From Aureimonas ureilytica DSM 18598 = NBRC 106430 (GTDB taxonomy: Bacteria; Pseudomonadota; Alphaproteobacteria; Rhizobiales; Rhizobiaceae): 64,000 nucleotides of DNA. The notes under the pieces are model-generated. The model was given only the letters and a program-made list of their open reading frames with translations. It searched no databases and was not told the DNA's origin. The position numbers and the translations under genes were made by a program. The stretch spans positions 62,001 to 126,000 of the forward strand of contig NZ_ARQE01000012.1 of the NCBI RefSeq assembly GCF_000382705.1. The letters are read 5' to 3'. Shown in pieces: positions 45,335-54,025 of this stretch (position 1 is the stretch's first letter; each line of letters opens with the position of its first letter).

Positions 45335-46239
45335 TGGAACACCTGCGCGTAGCGCCGCTCCACCAGCCGGTTGCAGCCGATGATGATGACGATGTTGGCG
45401 AGAAGCAGAAGCACGGCGATGGCGGCGCCGAGCGGCCAGTTCAGGGTCGACAGGAACTCGTCATAGGCGAGCGTCGCCGCGACCTTGAGGCGCCGGCCGC
45501 CGATGATGGCGGGCGTGGCGAAGGCGGAGGCCGCGAGCGCGAAGACGATGATCGAGCCCGACAGGATGCCCGGCATGATCTGCGGCAGCACGACCCGGCG
45601 CACCACGGTGAAGGGCGAGGCGCCGAGCGAGACGGCGGCGTTCTCCACCTGCGGGTCGAGGCGCTGGAGCGCGGCCCAGACCGAGATCACCATGAAGGGC
45701 ATGAGGACATGGGCGAGCGCGATCACGACGCCGGTCTCGGTGTACATGAACTGCACCGGCGAGGAGAGAAGGCCGAGCCCGGTCAGCGCCTGGTTGACGA
45801 CGCCGGTGGAGCCGAGAAGCATGGCCCAGCCGAGCGTGCGCGCCACGACCGAGATGAGAAGCGGCCCGAGCATCACCAGAAGGAAGATCGAACGCCAGGG
45901 CGCGCGCATCTTGTGCAGGATATAGGCTTCCGGCGCGCCGAGCGCGGCGGCGGCGAGCGTCGTGAAGAGCGAGATGCGCAGCGTGCGCAGGAAGATCTCG
46001 TGGAAATAGGGGTCGGAGACGATCTCGGCATAGTTCTTCAGCGAGATGTCGTCGGTGACGCCCGTGTACATGCCGAAGGAATGCAGCGACAGGATCAGCG
46101 TCATCACGAGCGGCACGACGAGAAGCGTGCCGACCACGACGAGCGCGGGCAGGTTGAGGAGATAGGGGGCGAGCCAGGCCCGGTTTCGAACGGTCGTGGC
46201 GGCGACCGGCTTCTGCGCTTGCGCGGTCACGGCGCTCAT
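45331..46239 (-). CDS. Pot-type ABC transporter permease, PotB-like
   Basis: 302-residue inner-membrane permease. A cytoplasmic N-terminus of about 25 residues precedes six helices; EAA loop VENAAVSLGASPFTVVRRV. I chose ATG 46239, whose sequence overlaps the stop of the ATPase gene (ATGA); the frame is open for 50 codons more upstream inside the ATPase gene. Partner of the PotC-like permease. Confidence 0.93.
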   Translation of the reverse strand: MSAVTAQAQKPVAATTVRNRAWLAPYLLNLPALVVVGTLLVVPLVMTLILSLHSFGMYTGVTDDISLKNYAEIVSDPYFHEIFLRTLRISLFTTLAAAALGAPEAYILHKMRAPWRSIFLLVMLGPLLISVVARTLGWAMLLGSTGVVNQALTGLGLLSSPVQFMYTETGVVIALAHVLMPFMVISVWAALQRLDPQVENAAVSLGASPFTVVRRVVLPQIMPGILSGSIIVFALAASAFATPAIIGGRRLKVAATLAYDEFLSTLNWPLGAAIAVLLLLANIVIIIGCNRLVERRYAQVFQ

Positions 46240-47288
46240 CGCGGCGCCGCCTCGTCCCGCGCGAGAACGCGCATGTCCTCGGCGCTCCAGACGAGGCCGA
46301 CCGTTTCGCCCGTGGCCGGCAGGGCGCCGCTTCCGTTGGGGGCGAGAACGAAGACCTGCCCCGCCTCGCTTTCCACGTCGAAGAACCATTGGCTGCCCTG
46401 GAACACGCGCTTGCGCACGACGCCCCGGAGCCCGCCGGCACCGAAGGACACGCGCTCGGGGCGCACGGCGACGACGATCGGCCCGGCCGCGCCCGCGCCC
46501 GTGCCCTCGCCCGCCACCGTCCAGCGCTGGTCGCGCACCGTCACCGTTTCGCCCGCGCGCACGCCGTCCAGCGTGTTGGTGCGGCCAAGAAAGCTCGCGA
46601 CGAAATGCGAGGACGGCGTTTGGTAGGCCGCTTCCGGCGGCCCGACCTGTTCGATCACGCCCCGGTTCATGACCACCACACGGTCCGACAGGGCCATGGC
46701 CTCGGACTGGTCGTGCGTCACGAGGATCGTGGTGAGGCCGGTGCGCTCCTGGATGTCGCGCAGCTCGCCCTGCATCTCGTCGCGCAGCTTGGCGTCGAGA
46801 TTGGACAGGGGCTCGTCCAGAAGAAGAAGGCTCGGCTCGATCACCAGCGCCCGGGCCAGCGCCACGCGCTGCTGCTGCCCGCCCGACATGCGCCGGGGAT
46901 AGCGGTCCGCCATGGCGGACAGGCCGACGAGCTGCAGGGCGGCGGCGACCTTGCGATCGCGCTCGGCCCGGCCGACCTTGCGCATTTCGAGGCCGAAGCC
47001 GACATTCTGCGCGACCGTCATGTGCGGAAAGAGCGCGTAGCTCTGGAACACCATGCCGAGCCCGCGCTTGGCCGGCGGCACTTCGGCCAGATCCCGCCCC
47101 TCGAGCACGATGCGGCCGGACGTGACCTCCACGAAACCCGCGATCATCTGCAGCGTCGTGGTCTTGCCGCAGCCGGAGGGGCCGAGCAGGGAGATGAACT
47201 CGCCCTGCTCGATGTCGAGCGAGATGCCGCCCACGGCGACGATCTGGTCGTAGGTCTTGGTCAGGCGTTCGATCGTCAGGAAGCTCAT
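46236..47288 (-). CDS. Pot-type ABC transporter ATP-binding protein, PotA-like
   Basis: 350-residue ATPase. Walker A GPSGCGKTT, Q-loop in MVFQSYALFPHM, signature MSGGQQQRVA, Walker B LLLLDEPLSNLD, H-loop VTHDQSEAM and a C-terminal TOBE domain starting VAVRPERVSFG. ATG 47288 has GAGG eight bases upstream. It is separated from the binding-protein gene by 242 nt that hold a hairpin (47313-47337) and the structured element A (47361-47523). Confidence 0.94.
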   Translation of the reverse strand: MSFLTIERLTKTYDQIVAVGGISLDIEQGEFISLLGPSGCGKTTTLQMIAGFVEVTSGRIVLEGRDLAEVPPAKRGLGMVFQSYALFPHMTVAQNVGFGLEMRKVGRAERDRKVAAALQLVGLSAMADRYPRRMSGGQQQRVALARALVIEPSLLLLDEPLSNLDAKLRDEMQGELRDIQERTGLTTILVTHDQSEAMALSDRVVVMNRGVIEQVGPPEAAYQTPSSHFVASFLGRTNTLDGVRAGETVTVRDQRWTVAGEGTGAGAAGPIVVAVRPERVSFGAGGLRGVVRKRVFQGSQWFFDVESEAGQVFVLAPNGSGALPATGETVGLVWSAEDMRVLARDEAAPR

Positions 47289-47337: not shown

Positions 47338-47360
47338 GAGTGAAAAGGCGAAAGGTCCTT

Positions 47361-47523
47361 GAGCCCGTCCGGAACGTCACCGGCGGAGGATCGCCGAGGA
47401 ATTATCGTCGCGATCGAGGCGCCGAACGCAGTCGATGCGAGGTCAGCATCGGCGAGGATCGGCAACGAGGAGGGCGACGAAAAGACCCGGCGAGCCGACC
47501 CGGCGGACTTTCGGGACGGGCTC
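47361..47523 (+). ncRNA. Structured element A, homologous to the decarboxylase leader (orientation uncertain)
   Basis: 163-nt element homologous to 51355-51517 when both are read on the plus strand. Closing helix: 47361-47378 pairs with 47506-47523 (16 of 18 pairs). Conserved blocks: GAGGCGCC at 47416-47423, AACGCAGTCGATGC at 47425-47438, GGCAACGA at 47461-47468, GAAAAGACCCGGCG at 47479-47492. Internal hairpins: CGGCG...CGCCG around GAGGAT near 47380-47396, and CGATGC/GCATCG at 47433-47451; TCGTCGC near 47405 can pair with GCGACGA near 47474. Both flanking genes are on the minus strand, so on the plus strand it would be an independent or antisense RNA. On the minus strand it would be an intercistronic structure between the binding-protein and ATPase genes. 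Confidence 0.6.
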
Positions 47524-47530
47524 TAAGCCC

Positions 47531-48577
47531 TCAACGCTCCACTTCGCGCGTCCAGCGCGTGTTCCATTCCTCGCGGACGGGGTTCACGTAGTCCCAGTCG
47601 ATCACGCGCAGCTGGCCGACCTGCTCGGGGCCGTAGGGAATGCCCTTGGCTTCCTCGTCGGTGAGCTTGGCCTTCTTGTTGACCGGGCCGTAGCCATAGC
47701 CGCGCGCCACCTTTTCCTGCACCTCGGGCGACAGGAGATATTGCAGGAGCGCCTGCGCCTCCGGCGTGTCGCGGCCGGCGATCGGGCAGCCGATGATGCC
47801 GAGCGAGACCGCGCCTTCCTTCGGATAGACCATCTCCACGGGGAAGCCGGTGTTGGCGAGCGAGTTGATGCGCGCCGAGCCCCAGACGCCCAGCACGGCC
47901 TGCCCGCTCTGGAAGAGCGAGGTCATCTGGCCGGGCGAGGCCTCGTAGGCGAGGACGTTGGGATCGATCTCGCTCTTGAAGGCCGTGAAGCCGGGATCGA
48001 TGTTGCGCTCGTTGCCGCCGCCGAGCTCGGCTTCCATCACCAGGGCATGGAGGCCGTAGGTGTTGGAGAGCGGCGGCACGACGAGCTTGCCGGCGTATTT
48101 GGGGTCCTTCAGATCGGCCCAGGAGGTCGGCGCGGGCCAGCCCTGCTCGGCGAAATACTTGGTGTTGTACATGAGGCCGGTCGCCACCGCGCCGAGGCCC
48201 GTCGCCTTGCCGCCGCTGACCTTGGCCATGTCGTAGAGATCGTCGTAGACCGGGGCGGCCTCGACCTCCTTGCACAGGCCGAGCGCGATCGCCTGATACA
48301 TCGGGCCGTCGTCCATGATGGCGACGTCGATCTGCGGGGCGGAGCGGGTCGCGACGAGACGCGCCAGCGTGTCGGTCGAATTGCCGGCCGTGTATTCGAT
48401 GCGGACCCCGTGCTCCTTCTCGAAGGCCGGGAAGATCTGCTCGCGCATCAGCTGCTCGTAGGAGCCGCCATAGGCCGCGACGTAAAGGACCTTCTCCTGC
48501 GCCACCGCAGCTGACGATGCGGACACCGCCACGAGGGCGACCGTCGTGAGAAGACGCGAAGGGAATGGGATGCTCAT
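47531..48577 (-). CDS. Pot-type ABC transporter substrate-binding protein, PotD-like
   Basis: 348-residue periplasmic binding protein with a Sec signal peptide (about residues 1-27, ending AAVAQEK). The mature start VLYVAAYGGSYEQLM is typical of the PotD/PotF and AttC-like branch, and DPKYAGKLVVPP is a family block. It is the first gene of the minus-strand operon, divergent from a LysR regulator, and has GAGG upstream of its ATG. Confidence 0.93.
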   Translation of the reverse strand: MSIPFPSRLLTTVALVAVSASSAAVAQEKVLYVAAYGGSYEQLMREQIFPAFEKEHGVRIEYTAGNSTDTLARLVATRSAPQIDVAIMDDGPMYQAIALGLCKEVEAAPVYDDLYDMAKVSGGKATGLGAVATGLMYNTKYFAEQGWPAPTSWADLKDPKYAGKLVVPPLSNTYGLHALVMEAELGGGNERNIDPGFTAFKSEIDPNVLAYEASPGQMTSLFQSGQAVLGVWGSARINSLANTGFPVEMVYPKEGAVSLGIIGCPIAGRDTPEAQALLQYLLSPEVQEKVARGYGYGPVNKKAKLTDEEAKGIPYGPEQVGQLRVIDWDYVNPVREEWNTRWTREVER

Positions 48578-51354: not shown

Positions 51355-51517
51355 GGAGGCCGTTTGACAATCCGGCGGCGGAGGACCCGCGAGGGATTTT
51401 TCGTTCTCACGAGGCGCCAAACGCAGTCGATGCCGGCGGCATCGTCTGACATTGGCAACGAAGTGAGGGCGGAAAAGACCCGGCGTGCCGACCCGATCGG
51501 GTTGTCAAACGGCCTCC
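51355..51517 (+). ncRNA. Structured leader element B upstream of Orn/Lys/Arg decarboxylase
   Basis: 163-nt element closed by a perfect 16-bp helix (51355-51370 with 51502-51517), homologous to element A. Shared blocks: GAGGCGCC 51411-51418, AACGCAGTCGATGC 51420-51433, GGCAACGA 51454-51461, GAAAAGACCCGGCG 51472-51485. Internal helices: GCGG/CCGC around AGGAC near 51380, CGATGCC/GGCATCG at 51428-51444, CTCAC near 51406 with GTGAG near 51463. A competing 10-bp helix AAAAGACCCG (51473-51482) with CGGGTCTTTT (51526-51535) would reach out of the element and disturb the closing helix, as in riboswitch expression platforms. The decarboxylase ATG is at 51668. A speF RNA motif is known upstream of alphaproteobacterial ornithine decarboxylase genes; whether this is that family must be tested. 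Confidence 0.7.
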
Positions 51518-51667
51518 AAAAGGAGCGGGTCTTTTCGTTGGCGCGTCCTTGGCGTATCGACCGGGCCGTACTGACCGGGCAGGGCGCCGAGCGGATGAAA
51601 TGAGGGATTGTCTTGGTCCTGTCATGAAACGCACCGATGGTCCGCGCCACCACGAACCGGGTGCCTC

Positions 51668-54025
51668 ATGGATTATTTCAGACGCTTCACCTTCCTCTTC
51701 GCCACGCCTTCCTTCGACGCCGACGATCTGGAAGGGGCCCGGTACAACCAGATCGTGGACGAGATCGAGAAGTCCGGCTTCGAGGTCGTGCGCGCCCGCA
51801 CGCTGGAAGACGCCGCGATCTCCGTGCAGACGGATGCCGCCATCGGCTGCATGATGGTGGACTGGGGCAAGAAGGGCCTCGAGGGCAAGACCGCCGCCCT
51901 CATCAACCTGATGCGCCGGCGCGGGCTCGACTTCCCGATCATCCTCCTCATCCGCCGCAAGCGCTTCGAGGACGTGCCGGTCGAGGTGCTCGACTTCATC
52001 GACGGCTATGTCTTCCTGTCGGAGGAAACGCCGGCCTTCATCGCCAAGAACCTCATCAGCCGCCTGAAGCAATATGCCGAGACGCTGAAGACGCCCTTTT
52101 TCGGCGCGCTGGTGGACTATGCCGAGGAGGGCAACCAGCTCTGGACCTGCCCCGGGCATAATGGCGGCGTGTTCTACAGCCGCTCGCCGATCGGGCGCGT
52201 CTTCATGGAGCATCTCGGCGAAGCCGTGTTCCGCGACGATCTCGACAACTCGGTTCTCGATCTCGGCGACCTCCTGACCCACGAGGGGCCGGCGCTCGCC
52301 GCGCAGAAGGAAGCGGCGAAGATCTTCGGCGCCGAGAAGACCTATTTTGTCCTGAACGGCACCTCCACCTCAAACAAGGTGGCGCTGGCAGCCTTGGTGA
52401 CGGACGGCGATCTCGTCCTGTTCGACCGCAACAACCACAAGGCCGCCCACCATGGCGCGCTCTTGATCTCCGGCGGCATCCCCGTCTACGTGCCGACCTC
52501 GCGCAATTCCTACGGCCTGATCGGCCCGATGGATTTTGCCTCCCTGGACGAGGACGCGCTTCGCGAGCGCATCCGCACCCATCCCCTGGTGAAGGACCCC
52601 GAGGCCTGGAAGAAGCCCCGCCCCTTCCGCGTCGCCGTGGTCGAACAGTGCACCTATGACGGCACGATCCACAATGCCGAGATGATCCTGAAGCGGATCG
52701 GGCACCTGTGCGAATACATCCTGTTCGACGAGGCCTGGGCGGGCTTCATGAAGTTCCACCCGCTCTATGCCGGGCGCTTCGCCATGGGTCTGGCCGATCT
52801 CGGCCCCGACGCGCCGGGCATCATCGCCACGCAATCCACCCACAAGCAGCTGGCGAGCTTCTCCCAGGCCTCGCAGATCCACATCAAGGATCGGCACATC
52901 AAGGGCCAGAAGCGCCGCGTGGAGCATCGCCGCTTCAACGAAAGCTTCATGCAGCACGCCTCGACCTCGCCCTTCTATCCGCTCTTCGCCTCGCTCGATG
53001 TCGGCGCGCAGATGATGAAGGGCCGCTCGGGCGAAGTGCTCTGGGACGACACGATCCGGCTCGGCATCGAGCTTCGCAAGAAGATCCGCGCCGTGCGGCG
53101 CGAGTTCGAGGAAAAGGAGCAGCGGCCCGAGCGGCGCTGGTTCTTCGAGCCCTTCGTGCCCGACACCGTGTCGATCCCCGACGCCGCGCGCCCCGGCAGC
53201 GCGCATGTCGTGCCCTGGGAAAGCGTCTCGACCGACCAGCTCGCCACCAACCCCGCCTTCTGGCAGCTTTCGCCCGGCGCTTCCTGGCACGGCTTCCAGA
53301 ACATGGAGCCGGGCTTCGCGATGACCGACCCCAACAAGCTGGTGCTGCTCACGCCCGGCTTCGACGGGGCGAACGGCGCCTATGGCGAGCACGGCATTCC
53401 CGCCCCCGTGGTCGCGCAATATCTTCGCGAAAACCGCATCGTGGCGGAAAAGAACGATCTGAACTCGCTTCTCTTCCTCCTGACGCCGGGCGTCGAGGCA
53501 TCCAAGGCCGGAACGCTGATTTCCGGTCTCGTCGCCTTCAAGCGCCTGCATGACGAGAACGCGCCGCTGGAAGAGGTGATCCCGGAATTCTACCGCCGCC
53601 GGGCCGGCCGCTACGCGGGCGTCCGGGTGCGCGATCTCTGCGCCGCGATGCACCGCTTCTTCCGCGCCGCCAATGTCAGCGCGCTTCAGGTCCTGCAATT
53701 CTCGGCCGACCATCTGCCCGACATCGCCATGTCGCCGCACGACGCGGCGCGCTGCCTCGTGCGCAACGATGTCGACTATCTGCCGATCGGCGAGATCGGC
53801 GGGCGCATCGCGACGACGCCCTTCGTGGTCTATCCGCCGGGCATCGCCACCATCGTTCCGGGCGAGCGCCTGAGCGAGCGCGCCCAGCCGATGATCGACT
53901 ATCTCAAGATGTTCGAAGCCTCGTTCAACACGTTCCCGGGCTTCGAGGTCGAAATCCAGGGCGTCTACCGCGAGGTGGATGCGTCGGGCCGCGTGCGGCT
54001 CTATACCTACGTCGTCGCGGAATAG
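51668..54025 (+). CDS. Orn/Lys/Arg decarboxylase, large PLP fold type I
   Basis: 785-residue class of bacterial ornithine/lysine/arginine decarboxylases. The N-terminal wing (residues about 1-135) has a response-regulator-like fold with DFPIILLIRRKR. The PLP domain begins near TCPGHNGGVFY; the cofactor Lys is Lys393 in STHKQLASFSQ, with VEQCTYDGTIHN and FDEAWAGF supplying the Asp that binds the pyridine nitrogen. The C-terminal domain starts near FVPDTVSIPD. ATG 51668 gives the usual N-terminus. A GNAT acetyltransferase gene follows 22 nt later. The expected product is putrescine (from ornithine) or cadaverine/agmatine; exact specificity cannot be read here. Confidence 0.93.
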   Translation: MDYFRRFTFLFATPSFDADDLEGARYNQIVDEIEKSGFEVVRARTLEDAAISVQTDAAIGCMMVDWGKKGLEGKTAALINLMRRRGLDFPIILLIRRKRFEDVPVEVLDFIDGYVFLSEETPAFIAKNLISRLKQYAETLKTPFFGALVDYAEEGNQLWTCPGHNGGVFYSRSPIGRVFMEHLGEAVFRDDLDNSVLDLGDLLTHEGPALAAQKEAAKIFGAEKTYFVLNGTSTSNKVALAALVTDGDLVLFDRNNHKAAHHGALLISGGIPVYVPTSRNSYGLIGPMDFASLDEDALRERIRTHPLVKDPEAWKKPRPFRVAVVEQCTYDGTIHNAEMILKRIGHLCEYILFDEAWAGFMKFHPLYAGRFAMGLADLGPDAPGIIATQSTHKQLASFSQASQIHIKDRHIKGQKRRVEHRRFNESFMQHASTSPFYPLFASLDVGAQMMKGRSGEVLWDDTIRLGIELRKKIRAVRREFEEKEQRPERRWFFEPFVPDTVSIPDAARPGSAHVVPWESVSTDQLATNPAFWQLSPGASWHGFQNMEPGFAMTDPNKLVLLTPGFDGANGAYGEHGIPAPVVAQYLRENRIVAEKNDLNSLLFLLTPGVEASKAGTLISGLVAFKRLHDENAPLEEVIPEFYRRRAGRYAGVRVRDLCAAMHRFFRAANVSALQVLQFSADHLPDIAMSPHDAARCLVRNDVDYLPIGEIGGRIATTPFVVYPPGIATIVPGERLSERAQPMIDYLKMFEASFNTFPGFEVEIQGVYREVDASGRVRLYTYVVAE

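Follow-up and report, generated by a model that had tools for sequence, protein, structure and literature searches.

Element A and its surroundings

The window studied here is a stretch of 64,000 nucleotides from the genome of Aureimonas ureilytica DSM 18598 (5.09 Mb in 44 contigs). It holds, at 47361-47523 on the plus strand, a 163-bp element that we call A and that lies between two minus-strand ABC transporter genes. The gene to its left (46236-47288) encodes a PotA/PhnT-like ATPase recognised by Pfam ABC_tran and TOBE_2, its best NCBIfam matches scoring under their cut-offs, and the gene to its right (47531-48577) encodes a solute-binding protein recognised by Pfam SBP_bac_8, with NCBIfam matches that are far under their cut-offs. 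The second copy in the window, element B, lies at 51356-51516 on the plus strand, upstream of an Orn/Lys/Arg decarboxylase gene (51668-54025, plus strand; Pfam OKR_DC_1).

The original prediction saw in A and B two structured RNA-like elements of the same length, 163 nt, sharing sequence blocks and closed by helices of unrelated sequence. Much of this description holds. Covariance model R1, built from 61 copies with A itself among them, matches A over all 162 model positions and in plus orientation (144.6 bits, E 3e-31), and B at full length with 154 bits. The shared blocks were found again, A is indeed antisense to both of its neighbours, and its closing helix, given as 16 of 18 pairs, is in line with the 16 of 20 terminal positions that match as an inverted repeat. 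The closing helices do differ in sequence, A and B being identical in 24 of 45 columns of the arms versus 86 of 118 of the core. The equal length was mistaken: by its own ends, B measures 161 nt.

On the plus strand, A consists of a left terminal inverted repeat (TIR) beginning with GAGCCCGTCCGGAA (47361-47383), which is assigned to type II from its agreement with the IS5-family element L242, a core with the inner helices, conserved loops and apical helix (47384-47500, approximate borders drawn from the alignment and pair counts), and a right TIR delimited by end comparison (47501-47523). It is flanked by the triplets CTT (47358-47360) and TAA (47524-47526), the latter of TNA type, and its target duplication is no longer intact. 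A is predicted to be strongly folded. Rfam 15 gave 0 matches at the gathering threshold in the whole window and, around A and B at E up to 10, chance-like matches only, with nothing credible. Downstream of B, about 12 nt (window 51533-51547) are complementary to the element's GAAAAGACCCG block; this stretch may be what had been described as an outward competing helix of B, and could be the remnant of an inverted copy or due to chance. R1 gives no match there.

Copies in the genome, the genus and beyond

A and B, first taken as a pair, belong to a much larger set. The genome-wide covariance search proposed in the original prediction, run with the 61-sequence model, identified 44 copies at E<=0.001 in the A. 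ureilytica genome, and BLAST with A at E<=1e-5 finds 30 places there, A included; two of these 30, at other sites, share 98% and 95% identity with A. The same prediction had named many dispersed copies with conserved ends as the sign of a mobile palindromic repeat, and this is what we observed, good inverted ends being present in 179 of 195 flank-distinct copies (the other 16 were dropped). Most copies measure 159-164 bp and lie between genes, the commonest lengths being 162 nt (73 copies), 161 nt (43), 163 nt (18) and 159 nt (18).

Model matches were found in 13 of 21 Aureimonas genomes and in none of the remaining 8. Aureimonas sp. AU20 (G013) has 91 copies, G019 has 58 and G008 has 23; copy number thus spans 0 to 91 among species of one genus. 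A scan of named genomes for the core pattern recovered 59 stretches, 38 of them from Aureimonas and the others from Jiella, Shinella, two Rhizobiaceae metagenome bins, and Chelatococcus and Xanthobacter bins. In a sample of 40 other genera, three matches at E<=1e-5 lie outside Aureimonas (L043, from genome G046 of another family of the order). A blastn search with A of a plasmid collection that includes S. meliloti pSymB, which presumably carries RIMEs, gave no match outside Aureimonas AU20. On the 50 kb of pSymB that were scanned, the model has a weak partial match at L389 30285-30342 (20.7 bits, E 0.003) and no full copy. No match to the element was found in the phages searched.

Empty sites were found for several copies. 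A is absent from the orthologous transporter spacer in four relatives (G018, G003, G014 and G005) in which both flanking genes could be aligned, the spacers themselves being short and poorly alignable in these genomes and nearly absent in G014 and G005. Further cases are provided by copy L190, with empty alignable counterparts in relatives and a stop codon at the junction in 4 of 4 aligned, and by copy L022 of A. ureilytica, with an empty alignable counterpart in G013 (L301). Copy L344 likewise has an empty counterpart, near the A. ureilytica locus L024.

Ends and target duplication

Copies are bounded by GAG...CTC inverted repeats with a 3-bp TNA duplication alongside. As the first placement of the ends favoured TNA, ends were reset from the inverted repeat alone, which left 132 of the 179 copies scorable. 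With these ends, a TNA triplet is found on the left in 97 of 132 copies and on the right in 101 of 132. The two flanking triplets are identical in 60 of 132 copies, all TNA, versus a mean of 26.5 and a maximum of 40 in 1000 re-pairings; they are unequal in the other 72, and identical 4-mers flank 0 of 132. The excess of identical triplets together with the lack of identical 4-mers indicates a target duplication of 3 bp, TNA.

A few copies depart from the common length. L026 (own C1:215991) and L030 (own C1:268282) have an additional hairpin, GGGCGAGACACG.GGCTCGCCC, within their right half, and six of the 179 copies are 188-197 nt long and may resemble these two. L020 (own C7:101794) and L028 (own C1:442301) have been reduced by internal deletions to 123 and 55 nt, respectively, and retain both ends and identical TNA triplets.

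TIR types shared with IS5-family elements

The TIRs attached to the one conserved core are of at least three types. Each type was also found at the ends of longer elements of the genus: type II, as in A, in L242 (911 bp, TTA/TTA flanks); type III in L259:299-1155 (857 bp, TTA/TAA flanks); and type I in L377 and L378 (845 bp each, with TTA/TTA and TAA/TAA flanks, respectively). All four overlap matches to the IS5 transposase model NF033580. When their 17-nt ends are compared with the best of 358 ends of the short copies, 15-16 positions agree, and for each end 0-2 of 300 shuffles do as well. The element L241 (G003), which is related to type II, has a weaker left end (13 of 17, reached by 8 of 300 shuffles) and unequal triplets (TAA/TGA), two copies having been examined. 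Related ends also occur in IS5-family elements of other genera.

Using reference strings chosen by us, both ends could be typed in 147 of the 179 copies, and the two types agree in 147 of 147 (74 of type II, 57 of type I and 16 of type III); one end was typed in 8 copies and neither in 24. A quick tree built from 172 cores, with few columns behind it and many open forks, gives 5 changes of TIR type for a minimum of 2.

In the A. ureilytica genome itself, a transposase search with PF01609, PF13340 and NF033580 combined with TIR scans revealed no matching GAG ends with TNA; several IS5-family genes of this genome sit at contig ends. The TIR pattern scan was there barely over its control (12 forward and 20 reverse versus 10 and 13), with ends of the short copies as its best matches. 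The L110 transposase, used as a protein query against a sample of 151 genomes of the family, matched 36 at E<=1e-20, and A. ureilytica is not among these 36.

Fold and strand preference

Across the 61 copies, standard pairs make up 95.9% of pair cells, and both partners vary in 38 of 53 pairs; these figures are favoured by the derivation of the structure from the same 61 sequences. The covariation measures were reached by 0 of 500 shuffles, and slid structures score far lower. The original prediction took the differing sequence and kept pairing of the closing helix as covariation due to selection on RNA structure. This argument is weak for that helix because it is the TIR, whose three types equal those of IS5-family elements, and covariation there is expected from the recognition of the ends. 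It fares better in the interior, where 21 of 25 pairs of inner helices 2-4 change on both sides, the apical helix hardly varying at all. The preference of the whole element for one strand also speaks for it: the plus strand has the better fold in 61 of 61 copies and in 151 of 172 of a larger set. G.U pairs also outnumber A.C at TIR positions 4-13, by 122 to 32, or 101 to 31 after collapsing local context. Together, the covarying hairpin, the better plus-strand fold and the G.U excess point either to a plus-strand RNA under selection or to mutation that is biased by strand.

The first of these would make the core itself the selfish entity, an RNA gene that is mobile, transcribed and structured and has the transposon ends as its vehicle. 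It would have swapped transposase several times by changing both ends together, its fold and length being fixed across several Hyphomicrobiales genera. The predicted folded plus-strand RNA of about 160 nt would be selected across copies, for example for protecting against nucleases, for binding a protein or for acting on the helper. Such a gene would be an addition to transposition rather than a full alternative to it, and we consider it possible, at perhaps one chance in four. Besides the inner covariation and the strand preference, the nearly constant length and the purine bias of the unpaired core letters (33 of 44) argue for it. Several observations weigh on the other side: G.U exceeds A.C among strand-neutral core pairs in 259 versus 120 cells but not significantly by site (21 versus 11), conservation is not clearly higher in unpaired than in paired core columns (0.815 versus 0.763, p 0.08), the minus strand folds better or equally in 21 of 172 copies, and no Rfam family matches at the gathering threshold. 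Moreover, a plus-strand-biased C-to-T mutation would yield a G.U excess of the same sign.

Such a mutational bias, combined with palindrome correction in which one arm is copied onto the other, might even explain both the covariation and the G.U excess with no selection on the fold. The constant agreement in type between the two ends of a copy is what arm-to-arm copying predicts. However, correction of this kind should erase internal loops, and the unpaired core positions persist and are conserved; we regard this explanation as unlikely, a little behind that of a selected RNA.

Position and orientation relative to genes

Gene context was scored for the 163 of 170 flank clusters that had enough flank, with ORFs called by a rough codon-based method for which eight window genes served as the training set. 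An ORF runs across the whole of one copy, and in one other an ORF enters the element. Orientation relative to genes is near random, with no fixed arrangement (++ 48, +- 45, -- 35, -+ 31, three incomplete). The split is 94 versus 66 for left genes (p 0.03 without correction) and 80 versus 81 for right genes.

Among gene ends that face the element, 34 of 94 on its left and 36 of 81 on its right have their stop codon at its edge (distance 0 or an overlap of 1-2 nt), and in the RefSeq annotation of the Aureimonas sp. AU20 plasmids 4 of 6 examined copies abut or overlap a CDS end. Copies might hence be kept as hairpins that protect or end host mRNAs at gene 3′ ends, which we consider improbable, at about one chance in eight. 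The coincidence with stops is found equally often on the two strands and is accounted for by the TNA target together with the purging of intragenic insertions. As TNA includes TAA and TGA, and as TTA followed by G gives TAG, an insertion at a stop restores the stop, and some of the edge stops may instead be new ones that the insertion brought. In addition, 161 of 170 flank clusters are single-copy, which lends no support to long retention.

That A is an antisense regulator of the transporter, or a free-standing sRNA tied to polyamine genes, as its antisense position and strong predicted fold could suggest, is very improbable given the dozens of copies elsewhere, the absence of A in four relatives with the same genes and the near-random orientation over 163 contexts. 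Regulation of neighbouring genes in general was also considered and was rejected on orientation; the lean to sense seen in a smaller first set of 67 copies (++ 23 versus -- 9) shrank to 48 versus 35 in the larger one (p 0.19).

A non-autonomous element with IS5-type ends

The original prediction left a choice between a free-standing sRNA, an antisense regulator and a mobile structured repeat; the last is retained, and control of the transporter is unlikely in view of the orientations. We conclude with high confidence that A belongs, as one copy among many, to a dispersed family of non-autonomous transposons (miniature inverted-repeat transposable elements, MITEs), present in Aureimonas and other Hyphomicrobiales, with IS5-type ends and presumably moved in trans. 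Its marks are those of a MITE: near-constant length, GAG...CTC ends, TNA duplication, intergenic location, near-identical copies elsewhere and empty sites. IS5-family elements of the genus have the same three TIR types and TNA flanks, and the element apparently depends on transposases supplied by several distinct insertion sequences. The proximity of A and B to polyamine or amine genes looks like a coincidence, as copies are many and dispersed.

IS5-family transposases would recognise two matching ends and mobilise the element in trans, and core lineages would have changed TIR type, and hence helper, a few times. More tentatively, the plus strand may at some stage be single-stranded or give rise to a transcript, and the conserved hairpin that it forms could matter to the element rather than to adjoining host genes. 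Counted against the MITE reading are the lack of a matching helper in the searches of the A. ureilytica genome and the decayed duplication of A, as well as the 72 scored copies with unequal triplets, the 16 copies dropped for their poor ends and the less good match of L241; the conserved length and inner covariation also exceed the needs of a plain MITE. One hairpin core with several TIR types, each with its own IS5-family match, would show that a non-autonomous element can outlive its helpers by switching between them, and the family would supply natural substrates for studying the TIR specificity of IS5-family transposases. In practice, a repeat of this kind, about 160 nt long, can pass for a regulatory RNA; masking is advisable before Aureimonas and its relatives are searched for sRNAs or riboswitches.

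Comparison with known systems

No paper naming this family was among the literature matches listed, most subscription journals lying outside the search; PMC5107571 is an unrelated sRNA paper. Rhizobial RIMEs and similar repeats are alike in being intergenic, in many copies and conserved in sequence and secondary structure, according to PMC2573895; in the plasmid collection with pSymB, blastn with A matched nothing outside Aureimonas. The IS5-family elements L242, L259 and L377/L378 resemble the element in having TNA flanks and, at about 15-16 of 17 positions, the same terminal bases; these are 845-911 bp long with a transposase, and the likeness is observed in the ends. QMITE2 of Coxiella, as presented in PMC10969869, is similar in size, has a strong predicted hairpin, lies mainly in 3′ untranslated regions and is a source of sRNA, but has 7-9 bp direct repeats and a variable size where the Aureimonas element has 3-bp TNA and a nearly constant one. 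More generally, in the same review, bacterial MITEs are less than 500 bp long, intergenic and hairpin-forming, with TIRs, a target duplication and a helper insertion sequence acting in trans; those resembling their helper in the TIRs alone are termed type II, and MITEs are typically AT-rich (PMC10969869). The Aureimonas element agrees with that description in size, TIRs, duplication, intergenic site, hairpin and TIR-only likeness, and differs from it by its GC-rich sequence, its nearly constant length and a core whose TIRs are of at least three types, with different IS5-family elements as their matches.
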